From assembly GCA_016177405.1 (NCBI GenBank), contig JACOVG010000033.1, forward strand, positions 1 to 41,485: a DNA stretch of 41,485 bases, read 5' to 3'. Within the stretch, counting starts at the first letter, position 1. The number at the start of each line of letters is the position of its first letter. The notes under the pieces were generated by a model, which had not been told where the DNA came from, searched no databases, and saw only the letters and a program-made list of their open reading frames with translations. Shown piece after piece: positions 31,615-41,485 of this stretch. Source of the DNA: Candidatus Omnitrophota bacterium. GTDB taxonomy: Bacteria > Omnitrophota > Gorgyraeia > 1-14-0-20-64-10. Both the position numbers and the translations under genes were made by a program.

Positions 31615-31828
31615 CGTAGGAAGGCTCCTGTACGAGTACGTCGAGGGGCTGCTCGATCCCGCCGATCGGCAGGCCATCGAGGAGCATCTCAAGGACTGCC
31701 CTTCCTGCCTGGCATTCCTGAAGACCTACCGGGAAACGATCCGCTTGGCCGGAGGGTTGCGCGAGGAAGAGATCCCGCTGGAGATAACGCGGCGCTTAAA
31801 AACCTTCCTGGGGAGGCGCCATGTCTGA
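31598..31828 (+). CDS. Zinc-finger (ZAS-type) anti-sigma factor
   Basis: A 76-residue protein beginning [17 protein letters not shown] and carrying the anti-sigma zinc motif H-x3-C-x2-C ([10 protein letters not shown]) within [20 protein letters not shown]. Residues up to about 60 form the anti-sigma fold; there is no membrane helix, so it is a soluble redox- or zinc-sensing type. AGAAAGAGG at 31582-31590 selects ATG 31598, inside the sigma gene. Its own 3' end overlaps galT by 8 bases. It probably holds the upstream ECF factor inactive. Confidence 0.85.
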
Positions 31829-32843
31829 ACTTAGGCAGAACCTGGCCACCCGGGAGTGGGTCATCATCGCCACCGAACGGGCCTCCAAGCCGATGGATTT
31901 TGCCAACCCCGCGGCAAAGGCGCCTGTCGCCGAACGGGAGGCCAACTGCCCCTTTTGTCCGGTCCATGAGGCGATCACCGGGCCAGAGCTCTTTGCCGTT
32001 CGGCCCGAGGGGGGCAGGCCAGATACTCCAAGCTGGCGGCTGCGGGTGGTACCCAATAAATTCCCGGCGTTGACGCCCTCTCCCACCTGCGCCATCCTGC
32101 CGCAGCGGCTCAAGGAGGGTCCCTACCTGCGGATGGACGGCTGCGGGCACCACGAGGTGATCGTGGAGCACCCCCGCCACGACCAGACGCTGGCCGGCAT
32201 GACGGTGGAGGAGGTCCGGCTGATCTTGGAGTCCTACTGGCACAGGCACCATCAGCTGGCGTCCGACTGCAACAATCACCTGATGACGATCTTTAGAAAT
32301 TATGGGGAGAAGGCAGGCGCCTCCCTGCGGCATCCCCATTCCCAACTGATCACCACCGGGATCGTTCCGCTTCATATCCGCACACGGCTCTACGAGGCCC
32401 AGCGCTATTTCGACGATGTGGGAACCTGCGCCTACTGCGATATCCTCCGGCACGAGATGAAGAGCAAGGAACGGCTTATTCTGGAAAACGACGGCTACGC
32501 GGTTTTCGCCCCTTACGCCTCCGGAACTCCCTACGAAATGTGGGTGATGCCCAAAAGACACCGGGCCTCGTTTGGCGATCTTCCCCAAGAGGAGCTTGGG
32601 GCCTGGGCCGAAGCGCTCCAGGGGGCGCTCGCGCGGCTGGCCAAGCTTTTGAATGACCCCGATTACAATTACGTCCTCCAGACCTCCCCCTATCCCCTGG
32701 CGGCGGTCCCCTTCTACCACTGGCACCTGGTGATCATCCCGCACTTGAAGACCAAGCGGGCCGGTTTTGAGATCGGCTCCGGGATCAGCATCAACATCGT
32801 CTCTCCCGAGGCCGCCGCCCGCGCCCTGCGGGAGACCCTCTAA
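31821..32843 (+). CDS. galT: Galactose-1-phosphate uridylyltransferase family (HIT superfamily)
   Basis: A 340-residue GalT-like enzyme. Zinc ligands are CPFC near residue 40 and CAYC near 210. The active-site histidine lies in LRHPHSQLI (His171, His173), where the usual HPHGQ Gly is Ser. [11 protein letters not shown] closes the second HIT repeat. It transfers UMP between UDP-glucose and hexose-1-phosphate. The length fits bacterial GalT. It is translationally coupled to the anti-sigma gene, which places a sugar-nucleotide step in the ECF regulon; a different nucleotidyl substrate (DUF4921-like relatives, ADP-sugar enzymes) is possible. Confidence 0.85.
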
Positions 32844-32908: not shown

Positions 32909-33127
32909 ATGAGCAAGGTGTTGAGATGCCGCGATGTTGGGACCGACTGCGGGTTTGAAGCGCGCGGGGAGACGGCCGAAGAGATCCTCAAGAAGGTTTC
33001 AGAGCATGCGCGCAAAGCGCACGGGTTCGCCAGTTTTCCTCCGGATCTGATTGCCAGATTTCAAGCGGCTATCCGGGAGGAGGAAAAAGGTTCGTGTGGG
33101 ACGGCGCCCTCTTGCGGGTGCCGCTAG
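32909..33127 (+). CDS. DUF1059 small protein
   Basis: A 72-residue protein. The DUF1059 core is LRCRDVGTDCGFEARGETAEEILKKVSEHARKAHG, with Cys7 and Cys14 placed as in the family and a following His. The tail GSCGTAPSCGCR adds three more cysteines, unusual for the short family and suggestive of metal or redox binding. AGAGGAGG selects ATG 32909. It has its own ECF-type promoter and probably shares its transcript with the small protein at 33188. Family function is unknown. Confidence 0.85.
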   Translation: MSKVLRCRDVGTDCGFEARGETAEEILKKVSEHARKAHGFASFPPDLIARFQAAIREEEKGSCGTAPSCGCR

Positions 33128-33187
33128 GCAAGAGGGTTGATTTTTTCAGGCAGAGGTGAATCGTCGTTGAAAACCGTGGAGGAAGCG

Positions 33188-33454
33188 ATGCAGAAGATGC
33201 GACAAGCGTTGGTTTTGGCGTTGGCGATCGGATGGGGGATTGTCCAACCTTCGATTCTCTTAGCGGCAGAGCATGGGGGCAAGGAACATGGCGGGACAGC
33301 TTCGACAGCGGCTAGCCATGAAGGAAGTCATGGGATGGAAATGAATGAGGCAGCCCTCCTGAAGGAAGCCGCCGCGGCTTTGCGCAAGGGGCAGAGCCGG
33401 CCGGATCTGGCGGAGAAACTGGAGAAATTGGCGAAAAGCCACGCCTCTCGTTAA
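33188..33454 (+). CDS. Small exported His-rich protein
   Basis: An 88-residue protein. The signal peptide covers about residues 1-27 (MRQALVLALAIGWG..ILLAA). EHGGKEHGGTASTAASHEG and SHGMEMN follow, then a helical tail (ALLKEAAAALRKGQSRPDLAEKLEKLAKSH). GGAGG at 33178-33182 selects ATG 33188 rather than earlier in-frame starts. The EHGGKEHGG string is shared with the small membrane protein at 26448-26639. The His/Met/Glu-rich stretch suggests a periplasmic metal-binding protein. Function unknown. Confidence 0.72.
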   Translation: MQKMRQALVLALAIGWGIVQPSILLAAEHGGKEHGGTASTAASHEGSHGMEMNEAALLKEAAAALRKGQSRPDLAEKLEKLAKSHASR

Positions 33455-33480: not shown

Positions 33481-33515
33481 GGTCCCCCCGGACCGCAGAC
33501 GCGTCCGGGGGGACC
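33481..33515. terminator. Strong GC hairpin, possible terminator
   Basis: GGTCCCCCCGGAC (33481-33493) pairs perfectly with GTCCGGGGGGACC (33503-33515) around a 9-base loop. No T-run follows, so factor-independent termination is not assured; it lies between the small exported gene and the third ECF-type promoter. Confidence 0.5.
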
Positions 33516-33599: not shown

Positions 33600-34421
33600 A
33601 TGAGGAATGCGCTGTTACTGGGTGGGGGCGGAAGCCGAGGAGCCATTGAGGCCGGCTTCTATAAAGCCCTCTTTGAGATGGGCGCTCCCGTGGACATGAT
33701 CTTCGGGACATCGGTCGGGGCCTTAAACGGCGCCTTCATCGCGGCCGGCTTCGCGCCGGAACAGCTCGAAGCGATCTGGAACCAGTTGGAGGAAGAGCGA
33801 TTGTTCCGTCGCGATTGGAGCTTCTTGTGGAAGTGGGGGAGGGCCGATGGTCTCTATCAAGCGGATGGGCTGATCGACTTTTTGAAATCCACCCTTCCGG
33901 TCAAGAGGTTTGAACAGCTCAAAGTCCCCTTGGTTGTCACTGCCACGGACCTCACGACCTCCGAGCCAGTTTATCTGGACTCGGGGGAGTTGTTGCCCGC
34001 TCTGTTGGCCAGCGCCGCCATGCCGCCGTACCTGCCGCCTGTAGCGCATCAGGGCCGCCATCTCGTGGATGGGGGGTTTGTGGCGAACGTCCCGATTGGA
34101 GAGGCGATTGCCCGCGGAGCCCAGTGCGTTCTGGCGATGCTCTGCCATTGCGCCGGGGAGCTGATTCAGGTACCCCGGGGCTTTTTGGAAGTCCAGGGGC
34201 GCGCTCTGCGGATCGCCCTGGAGCAGAAATTCCGCCATGATCTGGAGCATTACAAAGACAAAGCCCGAATGATCGTGCTGGAACCCTGCTTTGATTTCCC
34301 CCTGGCCATGCTGAAGATCCAGCAGACCTCATTGCTGATCGAGCAGGGGTATCAATTCGCCAAAACCGAACTTTTACGCCGCATGCCTGACCACTTCCAA
34401 GATCATCCGGGGGGTGAGTGA
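33600..34421 (+). CDS. Patatin-like phospholipase / acyl hydrolase
   Basis: A 273-residue single-domain patatin. The oxyanion loop is GGGGSRGA (8-15), the nucleophile elbow GTSVG (Ser38), and the catalytic Asp157 is in LVDGGF, completing the Ser-Asp dyad. SAAMPPYLPPV is the usual substrate-pocket segment. There is no signal peptide, so it probably acts on inner-leaflet phospholipids or acyl chains. It is the first gene after the third ECF-type promoter. Its stop overlaps the next small ORF (TGATG). Confidence 0.9.
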   Translation: MRNALLLGGGGSRGAIEAGFYKALFEMGAPVDMIFGTSVGALNGAFIAAGFAPEQLEAIWNQLEEERLFRRDWSFLWKWGRADGLYQADGLIDFLKSTLPVKRFEQLKVPLVVTATDLTTSEPVYLDSGELLPALLASAAMPPYLPPVAHQGRHLVDGGFVANVPIGEAIARGAQCVLAMLCHCAGELIQVPRGFLEVQGRALRIALEQKFRHDLEHYKDKARMIVLEPCFDFPLAMLKIQQTSLLIEQGYQFAKTELLRRMPDHFQDHPGGE

Positions 34422-34594
34422 TGCGAGTAGAATGGTTGACGCTGTTGGTCCCGATTCTGGCGGCGGGATTGATCTGGGTACTGATGAGGAACCCAGGCCG
34501 CCGGGCTTGCGGAGGATGGAACTTGAGCGATGGACTTCGGTGTTGGCGGGAATGGCTCCGGTGTCGGTTCCGCGGTGGCGGGGATCGGTGTTGA
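34421..34594 (+). CDS. Small membrane protein (57 aa), putative
   Basis: An ORF starting in a TGATG overlap with the patatin stop. It has one predicted membrane helix (WLTLLVPILAAGLIWVLM, about residues 5-22) and a basic, Trp- and Cys-rich tail (RRACGGW, RCWREWLRCRF, RC). GGGGTGAG lies just upstream. It fills a gap that otherwise would need an odd, non-family N-terminal extension on the DUF547 gene. Whether it is really translated is open. The four cysteines and the radical SAM gene downstream make it tempting as a modified peptide; nothing in the sequence proves this. Confidence 0.45.
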   Translation: MRVEWLTLLVPILAAGLIWVLMRNPGRRACGGWNLSDGLRCWREWLRCRFRGGGDRC

Positions 34595-35418
34595 AGGGGC
34601 CTGGGACTCTTCTCGGGACCGCTGGGCTGATCCTGTCGGCTTTGGCCGCCGGCTGGGCGGCTCCTCTGGGATTCAGCCATGACCTCTACGATCGCGTCCT
34701 GAAAGAGCATGTTGTTGACGGACGGGTGGATTACGCCCGGCTTCAGGCGAATCGCGAGGGCCTGGATCGTTACGTCGCCTCGCTCGCCGAGCTTCAGCCC
34801 CGCGTCTACGGGACGTGGAATGAGCCGACCAAGATTGCTTTCTGGATCAACGCCTACAACGCCATCACCCTGAAGGTGGTCCTGGACCATTACCCGATCC
34901 GGAGGGGCCTTTCTCCGGCAGGCCTGGCTTTCCCGGCTAACAGCATCCGGCAGATCCCGGGGGTTTGGGACCGAATCACCCATCCGGTGATGGGCAGGCC
35001 GACGACTCTCGATGCGATCGAGCATGAGATCCTTCGCGGGCAGTTCCGGGAGCCCCGGATCCACATGGCCCTGGTCTGCGCGGCCAAGGGGTGCCCCCCG
35101 CTTCGTGCCGAGGCCTACGAGGGGAAGCACCTGAACGCGCAGCTTGACGATCAGACGAGCCGGTTCCTGGCCAGCCCCGCGAAATTCCGGATGGACCGGA
35201 AGCAGGGAGTGGTCTGGCTGTCGCCCATCTTCCAGTGGTTTGGCGATGATTTTCTGAAGGCCTTCGGCGTTCCTGAAGGATTCGAGGACCACGCCGGGTC
35301 CGAACGGGCGATTCTGGCGTTCGTCAGCCGATACGTGAAATCGGAAGATCAATCTTTTCTGAAAACGGAGAATTACCGGGTGGCCTACTTGGGATACGAC
35401 TGGAGTCTCAACGAATGA
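34588..35418 (+). CDS. DUF547-family exported protein
   Basis: A 276-residue protein with a signal peptide (KGPGTLLGTAGLILSALAAGWA). The DUF547 hallmarks are NEPTKIAFWINAYNAITLK, THPVMGRPTTLDAIEHEILR, HMALVCAAKGCPPLRAEAY, VWLSPIFQWFGDDF and a C-terminal YLGYDWSLNE. GTG 34588 is chosen because it leaves a normal signal peptide and a 7-base overlap with the small ORF; the frame stays open back to 34414 (ATG 34516 and 34552 are alternatives). DUF547 proteins recur near thioredoxin-like and radical SAM genes; their activity is unknown. It overlaps the next gene by ATGA. Confidence 0.85.
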   Translation: MLKGPGTLLGTAGLILSALAAGWAAPLGFSHDLYDRVLKEHVVDGRVDYARLQANREGLDRYVASLAELQPRVYGTWNEPTKIAFWINAYNAITLKVVLDHYPIRRGLSPAGLAFPANSIRQIPGVWDRITHPVMGRPTTLDAIEHEILRGQFREPRIHMALVCAAKGCPPLRAEAYEGKHLNAQLDDQTSRFLASPAKFRMDRKQGVVWLSPIFQWFGDDFLKAFGVPEGFEDHAGSERAILAFVSRYVKSEDQSFLKTENYRVAYLGYDWSLNE

Positions 35419-36872
35419 CTTGGCCCCTTGCGATTGGCGGGTTAGCCATTTTGGCGGTCTCCGTGGGGTTTTCTTTCTTAAGCCGTTTCTTTATCTTTGG
35501 AGCGGGATACCTTGAGCGGCCTCTCCTTCCATTCGTCGCGTTGTTCGGGACGGGTTCCGCGGCGCTTCTGTGGGTTTTTCGGAGCGTCTCATCCCGAAGG
35601 CCTCAATTCAAAGGTGTCCACTGGAGACTGGCATGGATTCTCACCGTTTCTTTCCTGGCGAGGGGAGTTCTGTTTTCTTCCAACCCCATTCAGGAAACCG
35701 ATCCGTACCGGTACCTCTGGGACGGCAACGCGGTCCTTCATGGGGCCAACCCGTACCTTCATCCACCGGATGAAGCATACTCGGCGCCTGCGGCTTCTCC
35801 ATCCCTTGAGAGATGGCAGGCCTCGATCAGAACCGATGCCGCCCGGCAAGTCCACAGGCGCGTCAACCACCCCGGGATCCGAACGGTGTATCCTCCCCTG
35901 GCTCAAGGTCTGTTCGCCCTGGCGCAGGGGTTGACCCCGTGGTCTCTGGGGGGGTGGAGATTCCTGGTCTTTTTGGCGGACCTGGCCAATCTGGCGCTGA
36001 TCCTCGCGATCCTTTCCAGAGCACGCCTTCCTCTGGAGTGGGCCCTCCTGTATGGCTGGTCCCCGCTGATCCTGAAGGAGTTCGGCAACTCGCTCCACGT
36101 GGACGCGTTTGTGGTGCTGGGACTCCTGCTGATGATCCTGGCTCTCCAGTCCGGGCGGATCCGGTTGTCATTCCTGGCTCTCGCGTCGGCAGGATTGATG
36201 AAGCTGGCGCCGCTTCTTTTGATGGCGCCCCTGGCGGGTTGGGCCTTTAAGCGGTCTCGGAGACAAACCATCCAGGGACTGGCTGTCGCCGGCGCTTTGA
36301 TGGCGATGGCCTACCTGCCGTTTTTCTCCGCGGGGCCGGTTCTTTGGGATGGATTGGGCCACTTTGCGGGACGGTGGCGGGTTAACGAGGGACTCTATGG
36401 GGGGCTGGCCTGGATCATTTCCCAGCTTGGATTTGAAGCGGCTTGGACAGAGTGGGTGGCGCGAGGGACGGCAGGGGCGATTTTGCTGTTGGTTACTCTG
36501 GGGATTGTCCGGTGGGTCCGGCAGGATTCGGGAGATCTCCATCGGTTATGGGCAGCCATGCTGGCTCTGCTGGTTTGCTTCTTCCTGCTCCTTCCGATGG
36601 CCAACCCCTGGTACTTCACCTGGGTTATTCCTTTTCTTGTGTTGGTTCCGGTCCGGGCGCTGATCTGGCTTTCCGGGGTCTTGGGGTTATACTACCTGGA
36701 TTTTTACTTCATGTATCGGGGCAACCCTGAAGGATTTGGCTGGGTTCGCCTGGCGGAGTATGGATCTGTGGCAATGGCGGCGGCTTGGGAGTTCTGGCAA
36801 TGGCGAAAATCTCGATCATCCTGCCGGTTTTCAACGAGCGCGATCTCATTGAGCGTGCCCTCACGCATCTGA
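35415..36872 (+). CDS. GT-C-fold membrane glycosyltransferase (GT87/DUF2029-like)
   Basis: A 485-residue protein with about twelve membrane helices. The first large outer loop has IQETDPYRYLWDGNAVLHGANPY, the Asp-containing motif of polyprenol-phosphate-sugar-dependent GT-C enzymes, then IRTVYPPLAQGLFALA and LLYGWSPLILKEFGNSLHVD, all typical of GT87-like mannosyltransferases. It would move a sugar from a lipid carrier to an envelope acceptor. Its 3' end runs 73 bases into the GT2 gene. The last 20 residues (RSSCRFSTSAISLSVPSRI) look like out-of-frame reading of that gene rather than conserved protein. Confidence 0.82.
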   Translation: MTWPLAIGGLAILAVSVGFSFLSRFFIFGAGYLERPLLPFVALFGTGSAALLWVFRSVSSRRPQFKGVHWRLAWILTVSFLARGVLFSSNPIQETDPYRYLWDGNAVLHGANPYLHPPDEAYSAPAASPSLERWQASIRTDAARQVHRRVNHPGIRTVYPPLAQGLFALAQGLTPWSLGGWRFLVFLADLANLALILAILSRARLPLEWALLYGWSPLILKEFGNSLHVDAFVVLGLLLMILALQSGRIRLSFLALASAGLMKLAPLLLMAPLAGWAFKRSRRQTIQGLAVAGALMAMAYLPFFSAGPVLWDGLGHFAGRWRVNEGLYGGLAWIISQLGFEAAWTEWVARGTAGAILLLVTLGIVRWVRQDSGDLHRLWAAMLALLVCFFLLLPMANPWYFTWVIPFLVLVPVRALIWLSGVLGLYYLDFYFMYRGNPEGFGWVRLAEYGSVAMAAAWEFWQWRKSRSSCRFSTSAISLSVPSRI

Positions 36873-37636
36873 CCGGTCTCGTGCCGAACGAGTTGCTGGT
36901 GGTCGACGGCGGCTCGCGGGATGGGACCGATCGGGTGGCTCGGGCGTATCCCGGCGTGTCGCTCCTCCGGGCGGCGCGTGGCCGGGCCCATCAGATAAAC
37001 GCTGGCGCCCACGCCTCCGCGGGAGAGATACTGTTGTTTGCTCATGCCGACATGGCGTTTCCCCGCGATGCGATCGAGAGGATCCAAAGCGTCATTGGAA
37101 ATGGATCTGTGGGCGGCTGTTTCTTCAAACGGTACGAACCTGACAGCCCGCTCTTGCGATGGTACGCGTGGGGGCTGAATCATCTGTTCCTGGCCGGGAT
37201 GCGCCGGATGGTGGGAACCAACGGCCTCTTCGTCCGCCGGGATTGCTTCCTGACACTGGGAGGATTCCCGGAAGTGCCGATTCTGGAGGACCTGATCTTT
37301 GCCGACCGGCTGTGCCTCTGCGGGCGGCTGGGGGTCGTTCGGGAGCCGGTGATCGTTTCCGCGCGCCGGTACAGGAAGGCCGGCACGTTAAAGCAAGTTC
37401 TGATCAACGGCCGGATCCTTTTTGCTTACGATTTCCTGCATCAGTCGCCGGACCAATTGCAAAGCCTTTATGGACAACGCGCGTCAAAAGGAAAGGGGAA
37501 AGATGATGAAACGGTGGATTGGGCTGATGGTTGTTGTGGCAGCTCTTCTGGGTTTTTCGGGAGTCGGGCCTTACGCGCAGACTCCGAAAGCCGGGAAGTA
37601 CCTGGTCATCTTGCAGGCCGGCAAGGAAACCCATGA
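36800..37636 (+). CDS. Family 2 glycosyltransferase (TIGR04283-like)
   Basis: A GT-A-fold transferase beginning MAKISIILPVFNERDLIERAL. The nucleotide-sugar region is ELLVVDGGSRDGTDRVA, then RGRAHQINAGAHASAGEILLFAHADM with the metal DxD-like end. GTNGLFVRRDCFLTLGGFPEVPILEDLIF follows. These fit the TIGR04283 group often named for arsenosugar clusters; no arsenic methyltransferase is seen here, so the name should not be taken as function. The conserved protein ends near residue 228, but no stop occurs until 37636, giving a 134-base overlap with the next gene and a non-conserved tail (GKGKDDETVDWADGCCG...). ATG 36800 lies inside the GT-C gene. Confidence 0.83.
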   Translation: MAKISIILPVFNERDLIERALTHLTGLVPNELLVVDGGSRDGTDRVARAYPGVSLLRAARGRAHQINAGAHASAGEILLFAHADMAFPRDAIERIQSVIGNGSVGGCFFKRYEPDSPLLRWYAWGLNHLFLAGMRRMVGTNGLFVRRDCFLTLGGFPEVPILEDLIFADRLCLCGRLGVVREPVIVSARRYRKAGTLKQVLINGRILFAYDFLHQSPDQLQSLYGQRASKGKGKDDETVDWADGCCGSSSGFFGSRALRADSESREVPGHLAGRQGNP

Positions 37637-37958
37637 GGGGATGGCGCGGGCCGTTCACGCCTTTCTGTACGCGCGGGAGCTCAAGGAGCACGGCCATGAG
37701 GTTCGGCTCGTCTTCGACGGGGCAGGCACCGAGTGGGCGGAGGAGTTAAGTAATCCGGCATCCGAGTCGAAGATCAAGCCGATGTACGACGAGTTCAAAA
37801 GGCAGGGAATCTCGGAGGTCATCTGCGACTTCTGCGCTGGGGCCTTTGGGGTGAAGGAGGAACTCGAGGGCCGTCAGTTGCCGTTGACGGCCGGCTATGA
37901 AGGGCATCCGAGCATCGCCCAGTGGGCCGACCAGGGTTACCAGATTGTGATTCTATGA
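37503..37958 (+). CDS. Exported DsrE/DsrF-like protein
   Basis: A 151-residue protein with a signal peptide (KRWIGLMVVVAALLGFSGVGPYAQ) and a DsrE-like domain. It has YLVILQAGKETHEGMARAVHAFLYARELKEHGHEVRLVFDG, then EVICDFCAGAFGVKEEL with the Cys pair near the usual sulfur-carrying position, and ends GHPSIAQWADQGYQIVIL. Most DsrE proteins are cytosolic sulfur carriers; an exported one is less common. AAAGGGGAAAG selects ATG 37503 (or 37506). It overlaps the preceding GT2 frame and, by ATGA, the following FAD oxidoreductase. Confidence 0.8.
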   Translation: MMKRWIGLMVVVAALLGFSGVGPYAQTPKAGKYLVILQAGKETHEGMARAVHAFLYARELKEHGHEVRLVFDGAGTEWAEELSNPASESKIKPMYDEFKRQGISEVICDFCAGAFGVKEELEGRQLPLTAGYEGHPSIAQWADQGYQIVIL

Positions 37959-39475
37959 GGATTACCGTACCGCCCATGGACGAGCACAACCAGGCCTTGG
38001 CGGCCAACGTTCATCCCTCCGATTGGGTGAATCCCAAGCCGGAGGGCCGGTACAACCTCGTCGTGGTGGGGGCAGGCCCGGCCGGATTGGTTGCGGCTGC
38101 CGGAGCGGCTGGCCTGGGGGCCAAGGTCGCCCTGGTGGAGAAGCACCTGCTGGGCGGGGATTGCCTGAACGTCGGCTGCGTTCCCTCCAAGACGCTGATC
38201 CGCTCCTCGCGGGCGGCGGCCGAGGTCCTGCAGGCGAGCCGGTTCGGCGTCCATATCCCCGCAGGGGCAGAGGTTGATTTCCCGGCTGTGATGGAGCGGT
38301 TGCGCCGGCTCCGAGCCCGCATCAGCGCGCACGATTCGGCCAAACACCTCGCGGCCCAGGGGATAGACCTCTTTTTTGGGGAGCCCCGATTTACAGGATC
38401 GGATCGGCTCGAGGTCGCCGGGGCGAGTTTGCGGTTCGCGCGCGCCGTCATTGCCACCGGGGCCCGCGCCGTCTCGCTGCCGATCCCTGGATTGAAGGAG
38501 GCCGGGTATCTCACGAACGAAACGGTGTTTGAGCTCACCGAAAGGCCCAAGCGGTTGGCCTGCATTGGGGCAGGGCCGATCGGCTGTGAGCTGTCCCAGG
38601 CCTTCCGGCGGCTGGGGAGCGAGGTGTTTCTGTTCGACGCCGCGCCGCATGTCCTGATCCGGGAGGACGCGGATGCCGCCCAGATTCTCCAAAAGGTTTT
38701 TCTTGAAGAAGGAATCCATCTCGTTTTGGAGGGCCAAATCCAGCGCGTCGAAAACCAAGGTTTGGAGAAGATCATTCATTATTCCGCGAGGGGGAAGGAA
38801 GACGCTGTCGCGGTCGATCAGATCCTGGTGGGGGTGGGGCGGGCGCCCAACGTGGAGGGGCTGAATCTCGAAGCGGCCGGTGTGGCGTACGACACCAAGC
38901 TCGGCGTCCGCGTGAACGATCGCCTTCAAACGACCAACTCCAAAATTTACGCCGCCGGCGACGTCTGCATGGCGTATAAGTTCACCCACGCCGCCGACGC
39001 GGCCGCCAGGATCGTGATCGAAAACGCCCTCTTTGGCGGCCGAAAGAGGGCGAGCGCTCTGGTCATCCCCTGGTGCACCTACACCGACCCGGAGATCGCC
39101 CATGTGGGGATGTATGAGAAGGACGCGGCAAAGGCGGGAATCCCCGTGGCGACCTTGGTGAAGCGGTTAAGCGACGTGGACCGGGCGGTGGCCGATGGCG
39201 AGGAGGAGGGATTCGTCAAGATCCACGTCCGTCGGGGAACCGATCAGATTCTTGGAGCGACGATCGTGGCCCGCCACGCCGGAGAGATGATAGGCGAAAT
39301 CATCCTGGCGATCACGCATAAGGTTGGGCTTGGGAAGATCGCAAGCGCCATTCATCCCTACCCGACGCAGGCCGAGGCGATCCGGCAACTGGGGGATGCC
39401 TGCAACGCCGCGCGGCTGACCCCTGGCTTAAAGAGATTACTGACCTGGTGGCTGGCGTGGCGGCGCCGCGCATGA
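37955..39475 (+). CDS. FAD-dependent pyridine nucleotide-disulfide oxidoreductase (mercuric reductase-like)
   Basis: A 506-residue flavoprotein. An N-terminal extension of about 32 residues precedes the FAD motif NLVVVGAGPAGLVAAAGAAG. The redox-active disulfide is GGDCLNVGCVPSK (Cys70, Cys75), the NAD(P) site CIGAGPIGCELSQAFRRLG, the second FAD site IYAAGDVCMAYKFTHAADAAA, and the dimerisation/base His is in AIHPYPTQAEAIRQL. It lacks the heavy-metal domain and the C-terminal Cys pair of MerA, so true mercury reduction is doubtful. It may recycle a dithiol of the DsrE-like or DUF547 partners. It overlaps both neighbours by ATGA. Confidence 0.9.
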   Translation: MRITVPPMDEHNQALAANVHPSDWVNPKPEGRYNLVVVGAGPAGLVAAAGAAGLGAKVALVEKHLLGGDCLNVGCVPSKTLIRSSRAAAEVLQASRFGVHIPAGAEVDFPAVMERLRRLRARISAHDSAKHLAAQGIDLFFGEPRFTGSDRLEVAGASLRFARAVIATGARAVSLPIPGLKEAGYLTNETVFELTERPKRLACIGAGPIGCELSQAFRRLGSEVFLFDAAPHVLIREDADAAQILQKVFLEEGIHLVLEGQIQRVENQGLEKIIHYSARGKEDAVAVDQILVGVGRAPNVEGLNLEAAGVAYDTKLGVRVNDRLQTTNSKIYAAGDVCMAYKFTHAADAAARIVIENALFGGRKRASALVIPWCTYTDPEIAHVGMYEKDAAKAGIPVATLVKRLSDVDRAVADGEEEGFVKIHVRRGTDQILGATIVARHAGEMIGEIILAITHKVGLGKIASAIHPYPTQAEAIRQLGDACNAARLTPGLKRLLTWWLAWRRRA

Positions 39476-40050
39476 CCCTCCCCACGCCGGATACCCTTCG
39501 CCTTTGGATAAGCCAATTTGGAGTGATGGCCCCCTTCCTCTATGTGGCCCTCTATGCGGCCAACACCGTCACCCTGCTGCCTCCCATTGGAATCCTGTCC
39601 CTTAGCGCGGGGCTTGCCTTTGGGCCGGCGATCGGATTTCTCGCCATCATGGCAGGGGCGATGATTGGGACGTCACTGACGTTTCTGCTTGGCCGCCGGC
39701 TGGGACGGGGGTTCGTTGAGCGCCGGTTGAAGGGAAGATTCAAATCGCTGGATGAGGCGCTTGAGCGAAACGGCTTTGCCACCGTTTTATTCTTCCGGAT
39801 CGTTCCAATCGTTCCCTATGAGGTTCTCAACTACGGCTCCGGGTTGTCCAAGATCCCCTTTAGGGACTATGGACTGGCCACCTTCTTGGGGCTCATCCCT
39901 GGGGCGGCGGTGGCCGCTTTTTTCGGGGATTCGCTCACCCAGCCGTTTTCTCCGAAGTTTATCGCTGCCATAGCAGCCATGGCGATGATGATCGCCATCC
40001 CCACCCTCTACTTGAGAGTGAGAAGGAAAACAGGCCATGGAACTGACTGA
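39472..40050 (+). CDS. TVP38/TMEM64 (VTT-domain) membrane protein
   Basis: A 192-residue membrane protein with about five helices. VTT signatures are LLPPIGILSLSAGLAFGPAIGF, GAMIGTSLTFLLGRRLGRGFVE and the conserved FFRIVPIVPYEVLNYGSGLSKI, followed by LGLIPGAAVAAFFGDSL. The wider family is linked to lipid scrambling or transport. ATG 39472 overlaps the oxidoreductase stop by ATGA, and its end overlaps the radical SAM gene by 14 bases. Pairing of a VTT protein with a mercuric-reductase-like flavoprotein is common; the reason is unknown. Confidence 0.9.
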   Translation: MTLPTPDTLRLWISQFGVMAPFLYVALYAANTVTLLPPIGILSLSAGLAFGPAIGFLAIMAGAMIGTSLTFLLGRRLGRGFVERRLKGRFKSLDEALERNGFATVLFFRIVPIVPYEVLNYGSGLSKIPFRDYGLATFLGLIPGAAVAAFFGDSLTQPFSPKFIAAIAAMAMMIAIPTLYLRVRRKTGHGTD

Positions 40051-41485
40051 ACGGCAAAAAATCTTCGTGCCAAAGACCCTTCACGAAGAACAAAAGGATC
40101 TGCATCTGTTCCTCGATCCGGAGTCGCCCCACTGGGTTGCTGTGGATGCCCGTGGAGCGCAGATCATGGACTGGATGAAGGAGGGATTGTCGTTCGGGCA
40201 GTTCATTCAACGGTACTCATCTGTTCACGGCGCAGGCCCTGCCAAGGCGTGGCTTCATGTCCATGATTTCATCCAGTCGTTGCTGCGGGTCGGTTTCGCG
40301 CGCCTTACGCCGATCGTTCCGACCCCGTACCTGGGGCGCGCCGCCTACGCCCGTCCGACCGGCTTGAAGGAGCTGTGGTTCCACACCAACAACATCTGCA
40401 ACCTGGCCTGCACCCACTGCCTGGTCAATTCAGCGCCCTGGGTGCAGGACTGGGGGTTGCCCGCGCAGGAGGTGATGCGCCTCATTGATGAAGCGGCAGC
40501 TCTTGGCGTGGACCGTTTCTACTTTACCGGCGGCGAACCGTTCATGCGAAAAGACATGATCGACCTCATCCGCTTTATCACCGAGATGAAGCGCTGTGAA
40601 CTGATCCTCCTGACGAACGCCACCCTGTTCAAGGGAGAACGGGCCGAGGCGCTTAAAACCCTGAGTCGTGAGCGCTTAAGGTTCCAGGTCAGCATCGATG
40701 GCGCATCGCCGGCTACGAATGACCCGATTCGCGGGGCCGGCGCTTTCGAGGCAGCCGTGGAGGGCCTGCGCTTCCTGGCCGAACTGGATTTCCAAACCTC
40801 GATCACCACCGCCGTGACGGCGAGTAACCTTAAGGATCTGCCAGCGATCACCGAGCTGGCGCACCGGCTGGGTGTGGGCACCCAGCACCTGATGTGGCTG
40901 CACCGCCGCGGCCGGATGGTCTCGCGCGAGATGGATCCGCGGCCACGCCAGAATGGGAATGGGGCGCGCGAACCGGTTGATCCGGGATTCCCGGAGGTCC
41001 GTCAGCTTCTTGAGGCGATTCGCGAGGTCAAGCGCACGGCCGATCGTCTGGGGATTTCCGTAGACAACCATGAATCGATCAAACGCCGGGTCAATGGCCG
41101 GCCGGGGGTCAAATATGATCTCGGCAACGCCTGCTGGGATTCCCTGTGCATCTACTCGGACGGGACGGTCTACCCCTCGGCGGCGATGGTGAACGTCAAG
41201 CCGCTGGCATTGGGTTCTGTCAAAGGCGGTGGACTTCAGAAGCTCTGGGAAGGGTCGCCGGTGGCCGGGGCCTTCCGACAGGCCACAGTGGCGGCCAAGG
41301 CGGATCTTCGCGACGATCCGTTCCGTTACCTGACAGGCGGCGGTGATCTGGAACACAGTTTCTGGTTTAACCTCAACGGAGAGTCCTCTGCCGCGGCCAT
41401 TGCCCCCGAGCGGATGACGGCGCTCTTGACCGGCCCTGATCCGTACTATCCCCTCTACACGGCGATGATTCAGGATGCGATGTGG
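40037..41485 (+). CDS. Radical SAM enzyme with PqqD-like N-terminus and SPASM domain (3' truncated by window)
   Basis: 483 codons are visible and the frame is open at the window edge. Residues about 10-95 look like a PqqD/RRE-type peptide-binding domain (DPESPHWVAVDARGAQIMDWM). The radical SAM cluster is Cys121, Cys125, Cys128 (NICNLACTHC), with GGEPF at 165-169 for SAM, then ILLTNATLF and FQVSIDGASP. A SPASM-like region has NACWDSLCIYSDGTVYPSAAM (Cys366, Cys371). Such enzymes usually modify a peptide or protein. No precursor is annotated nearby except possibly the 57-residue ORF at 34421. It overlaps the VTT gene by 14 bases and closes the ECF-driven operon as far as visible. Confidence 0.9.
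   Translation, partial: MELTERQKIFVPKTLHEEQKDLHLFLDPESPHWVAVDARGAQIMDWMKEGLSFGQFIQRYSSVHGAGPAKAWLHVHDFIQSLLRVGFARLTPIVPTPYLGRAAYARPTGLKELWFHTNNICNLACTHCLVNSAPWVQDWGLPAQEVMRLIDEAAALGVDRFYFTGGEPFMRKDMIDLIRFITEMKRCELILLTNATLFKGERAEALKTLSRERLRFQVSIDGASPATNDPIRGAGAFEAAVEGLRFLAELDFQTSITTAVTASNLKDLPAITELAHRLGVGTQHLMWLHRRGRMVSREMDPRPRQNGNGAREPVDPGFPEVRQLLEAIREVKRTADRLGISVDNHESIKRRVNGRPGVKYDLGNACWDSLCIYSDGTVYPSAAMVNVKPLALGSVKGGGLQKLWEGSPVAGAFRQATVAAKADLRDDPFRYLTGGGDLEHSFWFNLNGESSAAAIAPERMTALLTGPDPYYPLYTAMIQDAMW

Follow-up and report, generated by a model that had tools for sequence, protein, structure and literature searches.

Radical chemistry driven by S-adenosylmethionine (SAM) is an established route to carbon-arsenic bonds, because it has been reported both for ArsS, which adenosylates arsenic, and for ArsL, which transfers an aminocarboxypropyl group (PMC12159101, PMC8552651). 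Arsenosugar loci combine ArsS (TIGR04167) with the arsenite methyltransferase ArsM, as with SsArsS and SsArsM of Synechocystis (Xue et al. 2019, as cited in PMC8552651). In the literature consulted on arsenosugar synthesis, the enzymes identified are those of the first steps only, i.e., ArsM and ArsS, and the later glycosyltransferases are named by model annotation. A radical SAM enzyme and ArsM also cooperate on arsenic in the arsinothricin system, in which ArsL and ArsM are separate proteins of a three-gene arsQML cluster without glycosyltransferases (PMC8552651). Here, a stretch of 41,485 bases from a Candidatus Omnitrophota genome (GCA_016177405.1; 1.70 Mb, 93% complete), hereafter the window, was analyzed; it forms the first part of contig C26 (JACOVG010000033.1; 117,303 bases). 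Toward its end begins a row of 12 co-directional, mostly overlapping genes (C26:33600-47036, plus strand), which extends past the window end and includes a gene for a radical SAM protein fused to ArsM. With a probability of about 0.62, this operon makes an arsenosugar-type organoarsenical, the radical SAM-ArsM fusion standing in place of ArsS and ArsM. This reading is favored because the same accessory genes surround genuine ArsS and ArsM in other Omnitrophota and scarcely any of them occur in control regions.

The product of the radical SAM gene comprises 870 residues, of which the window reaches residue 483. Because the window ends inside this gene, before the ArsM half and two downstream arsenosugar-family domains, the link to arsenic was invisible to an earlier reading made from the window alone (the sequence-only reading); when the contig was extended rightward, as that reading had proposed, the gene was found to continue to C26:42649 and the row to 47036. 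Residues about 540-840 correspond to an ArsM-type arsenite methyltransferase (PRK11873, E 1.5e-68). The operon differs from the arsinothricin system in its single fused protein and its glycosyltransferases, and on the NF040538 ArsM model it scores 212.9 against 500 bits. Residues C680 (SNC) and C730 (GEC) align with the conserved arsenic-binding cysteines of the solved CmArsM and CrArsM structures, human AS3MT being matched as well, and C564-565 aligns near the N-terminal cysteine of CrArsM. Other cysteines are invariant in the complete fusions of Omnitrophota and Nitrospinota (C515, C535, CC564-565, C588, C614, C784, C817 and a terminal CC). The source genome, at its 93% completeness, has no second strong ArsM match, the next best (44 bits) being at the level of generic methyltransferases, and no ArsS over the TIGR04167 cut-off. 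A plasmid search with the fusion gave no record with 80% query coverage, and each of the best 15 matched the ArsM half only. Outside the window, at C26:42561-42612 (about L020:2562-2613), the reading frame of the C-terminal linker of the fusion passes through a partly palindromic repeat of ~50 bases that is dispersed over the genome, where it has 19 other complete or partial matches; a similar stretch is present in the G002 protein and absent from those of G003 and G007.

In the other half, the radical SAM domain spans residues 119-273 (PF04055, 85.4 bits, over the Pfam cut-off), and its CxxxCxxC motif (C121/C125/C128) is invariant, as is GGEP, in all homologues compared. The following SPASM-like region (residues about 366-414) scores 18.9 bits against a gathering score of 21.5 and has lost nearly all cysteines of the auxiliary iron-sulfur cluster, with YPS for the usual YPC and GGGD for the C-terminal cysteine motif; only C371 is retained in Omnitrophota and Nitrospinota. 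Hence, the SPASM domain named by the sequence-only reading is not supported as such. Its PqqD-like domain fared better in part: the PqqD/RRE profile (PF05402) reaches only 13.9 bits against a cut-off of 23.4, and the N-terminal topology predicted in an AlphaFold2 model (strand-strand-strand-helix-helix-helix) is compatible with PqqD. The full fusion was modeled from six sequences with only a moderate mean predicted local distance difference test score (pLDDT) of 65. In a search of PDB folds with this model, ArsM was the top match (E 1e-16), and the SPASM-type enzymes SkfB, SuiB and anSME were also matched. The fusion stays under the cut-off of every NCBIfam radical SAM model. None of the named families considered (Rv1681, AhbD, mycofactocin, NirJ2, ScmE/F, ArsS and others) came close to its cut-off, and all were rejected, the ArsS model TIGR04167 matching the radical SAM core only. 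With the radical SAM protein as query, the nearest named relatives were Candidatus Omnitrophota.

The first ~430 residues of the model, including the putative PqqD-like domain, would thus resemble the RRE/SPASM maturases SkfB, SuiB, anSME and PqqE. Such a likeness, together with the weak PqqD match, would suit a modification of the kind found in ribosomally synthesized and post-translationally modified peptides, with the PqqD-like domain binding a precursor peptide for the radical half, with or without arsenic. This explanation is improbable: unlike the maturases, the radical half is devoid of almost all auxiliary-cluster ligands and, in every relative matched over the full length, is joined to ArsM, and the accessory genes correspond to those of ArsS loci. 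A peptide substrate is not evident either, since the operon showed no recognizable precursor peptide, although no dedicated search was made. The ArsM half, the lost SPASM cysteines and the cassette context thus speak against the peptide-type radical SAM enzyme proposed earlier; arsenic, not a peptide, is the most likely substrate. One locus (G457:C119, L183) encodes a radical SAM/SPASM protein of 516 residues that stands alone and is akin to the radical half of the fusion; its gene overlaps a TIGR04283-like gene, an arrangement that is possibly a split form of the radical SAM-ArsM system.

The accessory genes were counted, with hand-set score thresholds, at 30 loci with ArsS, at 11 loci with the fusion in Omnitrophota and in 21 control regions of 20 kb. 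In these three groups, respectively, homologues were found at 22, 9 and 0 loci for TIGR04282, 20, 4 and 0 for TIGR04283, 20, 8 and 0 for VTT, 18, 7 and 0 for the MerA-like FAD enzyme, 15, 5 and 1 for DUF547, 11, 6 and 0 for PHO4, and 5, 7 and 0 for GT-C. Fisher P values against the controls ranged from 5e-4 to 2e-7 for MerA-like, VTT, TIGR04282 and PHO4. With the operon's own proteins as queries, such genes were found around genuine ArsS in other Omnitrophota, e.g., at L105, which holds DUF547, GT-C, TIGR04283, TIGR04282, ArsM, PHO4, ArsS, GalT, MerA-like, VTT and a DsrE/DsbD protein, and the gene content of L107, L108, L109, L112 and L113 is similar. Overall, the Omnitrophota loci with ArsS and ArsM (L105, L107-L109, L112) share with the operon DUF547, GT-C, TIGR04283, TIGR04282, PHO4, the MerA-like FAD enzyme, VTT, DsrE, GH1 and an ArsM. 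In contrast to them, the operon has no ArsS, and its ArsM belongs to a different clade and forms the C-terminal part of a fusion with an unrelated radical SAM protein. In the operon, TIGR04282 and TIGR04283, two families annotated as arsenosugar biosynthesis glycosyltransferases, are both over their cut-offs downstream of the fusion; a close homologue of this TIGR04283-TIGR04282 fusion occurs at the fusion locus L021, and G308 has a TIGR04282-like gene on its second contig.

As relatives have retained the gene set and the control regions are almost free of it, it is not a chance grouping. The earlier proposal of a joint pathway with glycosyltransferases and thiol/disulfide chemistry is borne out as to the set, which recurs across genomes as that reading had suggested should be checked and does not show the lack of conservation in relatives that would have refuted the grouping, and its dithiol redox chemistry is plausible; its peptide substrate is not supported. 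Contrary to that reading, a known counterpart exists, namely the accessory set of ArsS/ArsM arsenosugar loci. These results also bear on the explanation that the fusion would methylate arsenic only, its radical half being a redox or regulatory appendage or having another target, and its neighbors being general envelope genes on a shared transcript by chance. The lost SPASM cysteines and the orphan fusions of Nitrospinota and Desulfobacterota would fit it. However, an invariant CxxxCxxC and GGEP, and accessory genes common to ArsS loci and almost missing from controls, make it very improbable.

The distribution of the fusion was compared with that of ArsS. Among 345 Desulfobacterota genomes, 105 have ArsS, 29 a full-length fusion and none both, against 8.8 expected (P 1.5e-5, kinship uncorrected). 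Among 384 Omnitrophota genomes, ArsS is over the cut-off in 32, the fusion is present in nine and none has both (0.75 expected, not significant alone). In the window's own family (nine genomes), TIGR04283 is over its cut-off in six, four of which have the fusion, and the remaining three have neither. Two members of this family, G001 (L101) and G008 (L102), carry the TIGR04283-TIGR04282 fusion beside ferredoxin and GreA genes with no radical SAM-ArsM fusion seen, in genomes only ~80% complete. When 47 ArsM domains were placed in a tree, those of the fusions in Nitrospinota and in the two Omnitrophota families formed one clade (98/97), separated from the ArsS-cassette ArsM and from the main ArsS-ArsM fusion clade by 100/100 branches. 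From this tree, the fusion would have entered existing cassettes, or spread with them, as a unit. Hence, it seems from the sequences to have replaced ArsS and ArsM together, as a non-orthologous replacement; a replacement of ArsS alone beside a local ArsM is unsupported by the tree.

True ArsS-ArsM fusions of 605-738 residues, which likewise are single chains made of a radical SAM part and an ArsM part and lie in a similar gene cluster, exist at L103, L104, L106 and L111, and radical SAM-ArsM fusions therefore arose more than once. Unlike that of the operon, their radical half is of the TIGR04167 type (399 bits in L111), and their ArsM halves lie in other clades, except that of L111, which is near the SPASM-type ArsM. 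In family f10, the operon's type of fusion is accompanied by TIGR04282 and an AglJ/PpgS-like glycosyltransferase in place of TIGR04283. Desulfobacterota fusions mostly measure 1030-1130 residues, with a further domain behind ArsM (L018, L019, L173-L180), which matches NF045648 (metal-binding double selenoprotein MbdU) in L018, the one examined. TIGR04282- or TIGR04283-like neighbors lie within 1.5 kb of the fusion in 8 of 28 cases, e.g., L173 and L180, the row of L173 being TIGR04283-like, TIGR04282, fusion, VTT and MerA-like. The four Nitrospinota fusions have no cassette gene nearby, some of their contigs being short. In Desulfobacterota, many ArsS frames have a single in-frame TGA codon, which is expected in the ArsS family as a codon for selenocysteine.

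In the arsenosugar-type reading, arsenate would enter, along with phosphate, through the PHO4 carrier. Cys680, Cys730 and either Cys565 or a neighbor would bind As(III) for the ArsM half, which would methylate arsenite, probably to the dimethyl stage. The half with the CxxxCxxC [4Fe-4S] site would then cleave a second SAM and add a SAM-derived carbon radical to the same arsenic, most likely 5'-deoxyadenosyl, as with ArsS; more speculatively, the degenerate SPASM region could make space for the arsenical at C515, C535 or C564-565. The FAD disulfide reductase, and perhaps also the exported DsrE protein, would keep thiols or As(III) reduced, and the GH1 or alpha/beta hydrolase may trim the nucleoside. 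Sugar or polyprenyl-linked groups would be attached by the TIGR04283, TIGR04282 and GT-C proteins, and a lipid-linked product may be moved by VTT. Both the product of the operon and an ArsS-type adenosylation by the radical half are what we infer from these comparisons.

Several points weigh against this reading. The arsenic chemistry of all the operon proteins is predicted from sequence. The full fusion scores 231 bits on PRK11873/NF008823, under the curated cut-off of 263, as does the genuine cassette ArsM of L105 (184.9). The radical half differs from ArsS (54.6 bits against the TIGR04167 cut-off of 300) and resembles peptide-maturase or anSME types, and the names TIGR04283 and TIGR04282 themselves derive from co-occurrence. 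Moreover, the exclusion between ArsS and fusion is uncorrected for kinship and not significant within Omnitrophota, and the fusions of Nitrospinota and part of Desulfobacterota stand without the cassette. Part of this evidence would also suit an organoarsenical operon in which the radical half forms another carbon-arsenic bond, e.g., an ArsL-type 3-amino-3-carboxypropyl or other radical transfer, the new arsenical being decorated by the glycosyltransferases. Indeed, ArsL is a precedent for other SAM-derived radicals reaching arsenic (PMC8552651), the radical half is unrelated to ArsS with a degenerate SPASM, Nitrospinota fusions lack the cassette, and the f10 glycosyltransferase is of a polyprenyl-phosphate type. 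This alternative is nevertheless unlikely, as the identical accessory set around ArsS and the mutual exclusion with ArsS argue for the same product. Returning to the arsenosugar-type operon, the broader proposal would be that a radical SAM route to carbon-arsenic bonds evolved a second time, independently, and that a PqqD-like/radical SAM/cluster-poor-SPASM-ArsM protein of Omnitrophota, Nitrospinota and Desulfobacterota carries out methylation and then the transfer of a SAM-derived radical on one polypeptide, and can substitute for ArsS and ArsM in otherwise similar arsenosugar operons; we consider the odds of it to be even.

The features of the row are collected below. Profile searches and open reading frame junctions confirmed the earlier gene calls and overlaps, with eight named-domain genes overlapping or abutting on the plus strand within 33600-41485; the "nine or more" counted to the window end are thus eight, or 12 when followed to 47036. 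The junctions of the eight are -8, -4, -73, -131, about +17, -4 and -14 bases, in order, the value of about +17 assuming that the FAD gene starts at ATG 37976. The row continues with a PHO4/Pit carrier, a GH1 beta-glucosidase-like gene, the TIGR04283-TIGR04282 fusion and an alpha/beta hydrolase (junctions +1, +11, -4 and -4 bases).

Table 1. Features of the operon and its upstream neighbor (window positions; C26 positions where marked).
Feature	Position	Strand	Profile evidence
GalT-like hexose-1-phosphate uridylyltransferase, upstream of the row	31821..32843	+	
Patatin-like phospholipase, first gene of the row	33600..34421	+	PF01734 130.8 bits
DUF547 protein	34414..35418	+	PF04784 91.7 bits
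Putative GT-C-like multi-spanning membrane protein (polyprenol-dependent glycosyltransferase-like)	35415..36872	+	no Pfam or NCBIfam match
GT2 glycosyltransferase, TIGR04283 type, first copy	36800..37636	+	179.2 bits, cut-off 182
DsrE-like protein, signal-peptide-like N-terminus, CDFC motif	37506..37958	+	PF02635 37.6 bits
FAD/NAD(P)-disulfide oxidoreductase, redox CxxxxC (GGDCLNVGC)	37976..39475	+	NF004991 824 bits, cut-off 620
VTT/TVP38-type membrane protein	39472..40050	+	PF09335 99.3 bits
Radical SAM/degenerate SPASM half, residues 1-483 of the 870-residue radical SAM-ArsM fusion	40037..41485 (gene end C26:42649)	+	
TIGR04283-TIGR04282 fusion, outside the window	C26:45070-46326		TIGR04283 225.7 bits, cut-off 182; TIGR04282 183.2 bits, cut-off 134

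The single promoter claimed at the front of the row could not be confirmed, because the sole sigma-70-like site (33673-33700) lies inside the patatin gene and 1.9 such sites are expected by chance. The patatin gene itself is probably peripheral to the pathway, since it is confined to the window's family (3/11 fusion loci, 0/30 ArsS loci). Just 5' of it, at 33481-33515, lies a perfect 13-base inverted repeat (GGTCCCCCCGGAC/GTCCGGGGGGACC) with a 9-base loop, which may terminate the upstream gene or serve in regulation. The GalT-like gene, which has homologues at the ArsS loci L105, L107 and L211, is possibly associated with the row, its membership being uncertain; between it and the operon, 32909-33454 encodes a DUF1059 protein and also a small protein of 105 residues that looks secreted. 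The predicted GT-C-like protein has homologues at the ArsS loci L105 (283 bits) and L112 (312 bits), and the DsrE protein at L105 and L107. The GT2 gene of the window represents a second TIGR04283-type copy in the operon, whose G003 orthologue reaches 182. It overlaps the DsrE gene by 131 bases in different frames (37506-37636), and the relative G003 (L014) likewise has a long overlap. The FAD enzyme was rejected as the mercuric reductase suggested by the sequence-only reading: it misses the MerA cut-off (TIGR02053, 388 against 454.45 bits) and ends in LAWRRRA, without the C-terminal vicinal cysteines, and passes NF004991 instead.

An 'ArsSM' fusion was reportedly described by Yang et al. in 2024 in a sulfate reducer (as cited in PMC12124457); going by its title, it may be either an ArsS-type fusion or one of the operon's type, and in the latter case the enzyme itself would be partly known. 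Our search of the open-access literature, outside which many subscription papers lie, returned no paper on a radical SAM-ArsM fusion of the operon's type and no report of organoarsenical synthesis in Omnitrophota. The pathway is known in outline, and the pair of enzymes at its head seems to be replaced by another type. Since one accessory set accompanies two radical SAM enzymes that are unrelated to each other, TIGR04282, TIGR04283, DUF547, GT-C, the FAD reductase, VTT and PHO4 stand out as likely pathway genes, to which patatin may not belong. These results point to organoarsenical synthesis in Omnitrophota and offer a single protein with which methylation and the radical formation of carbon-arsenic bonds could be studied jointly.

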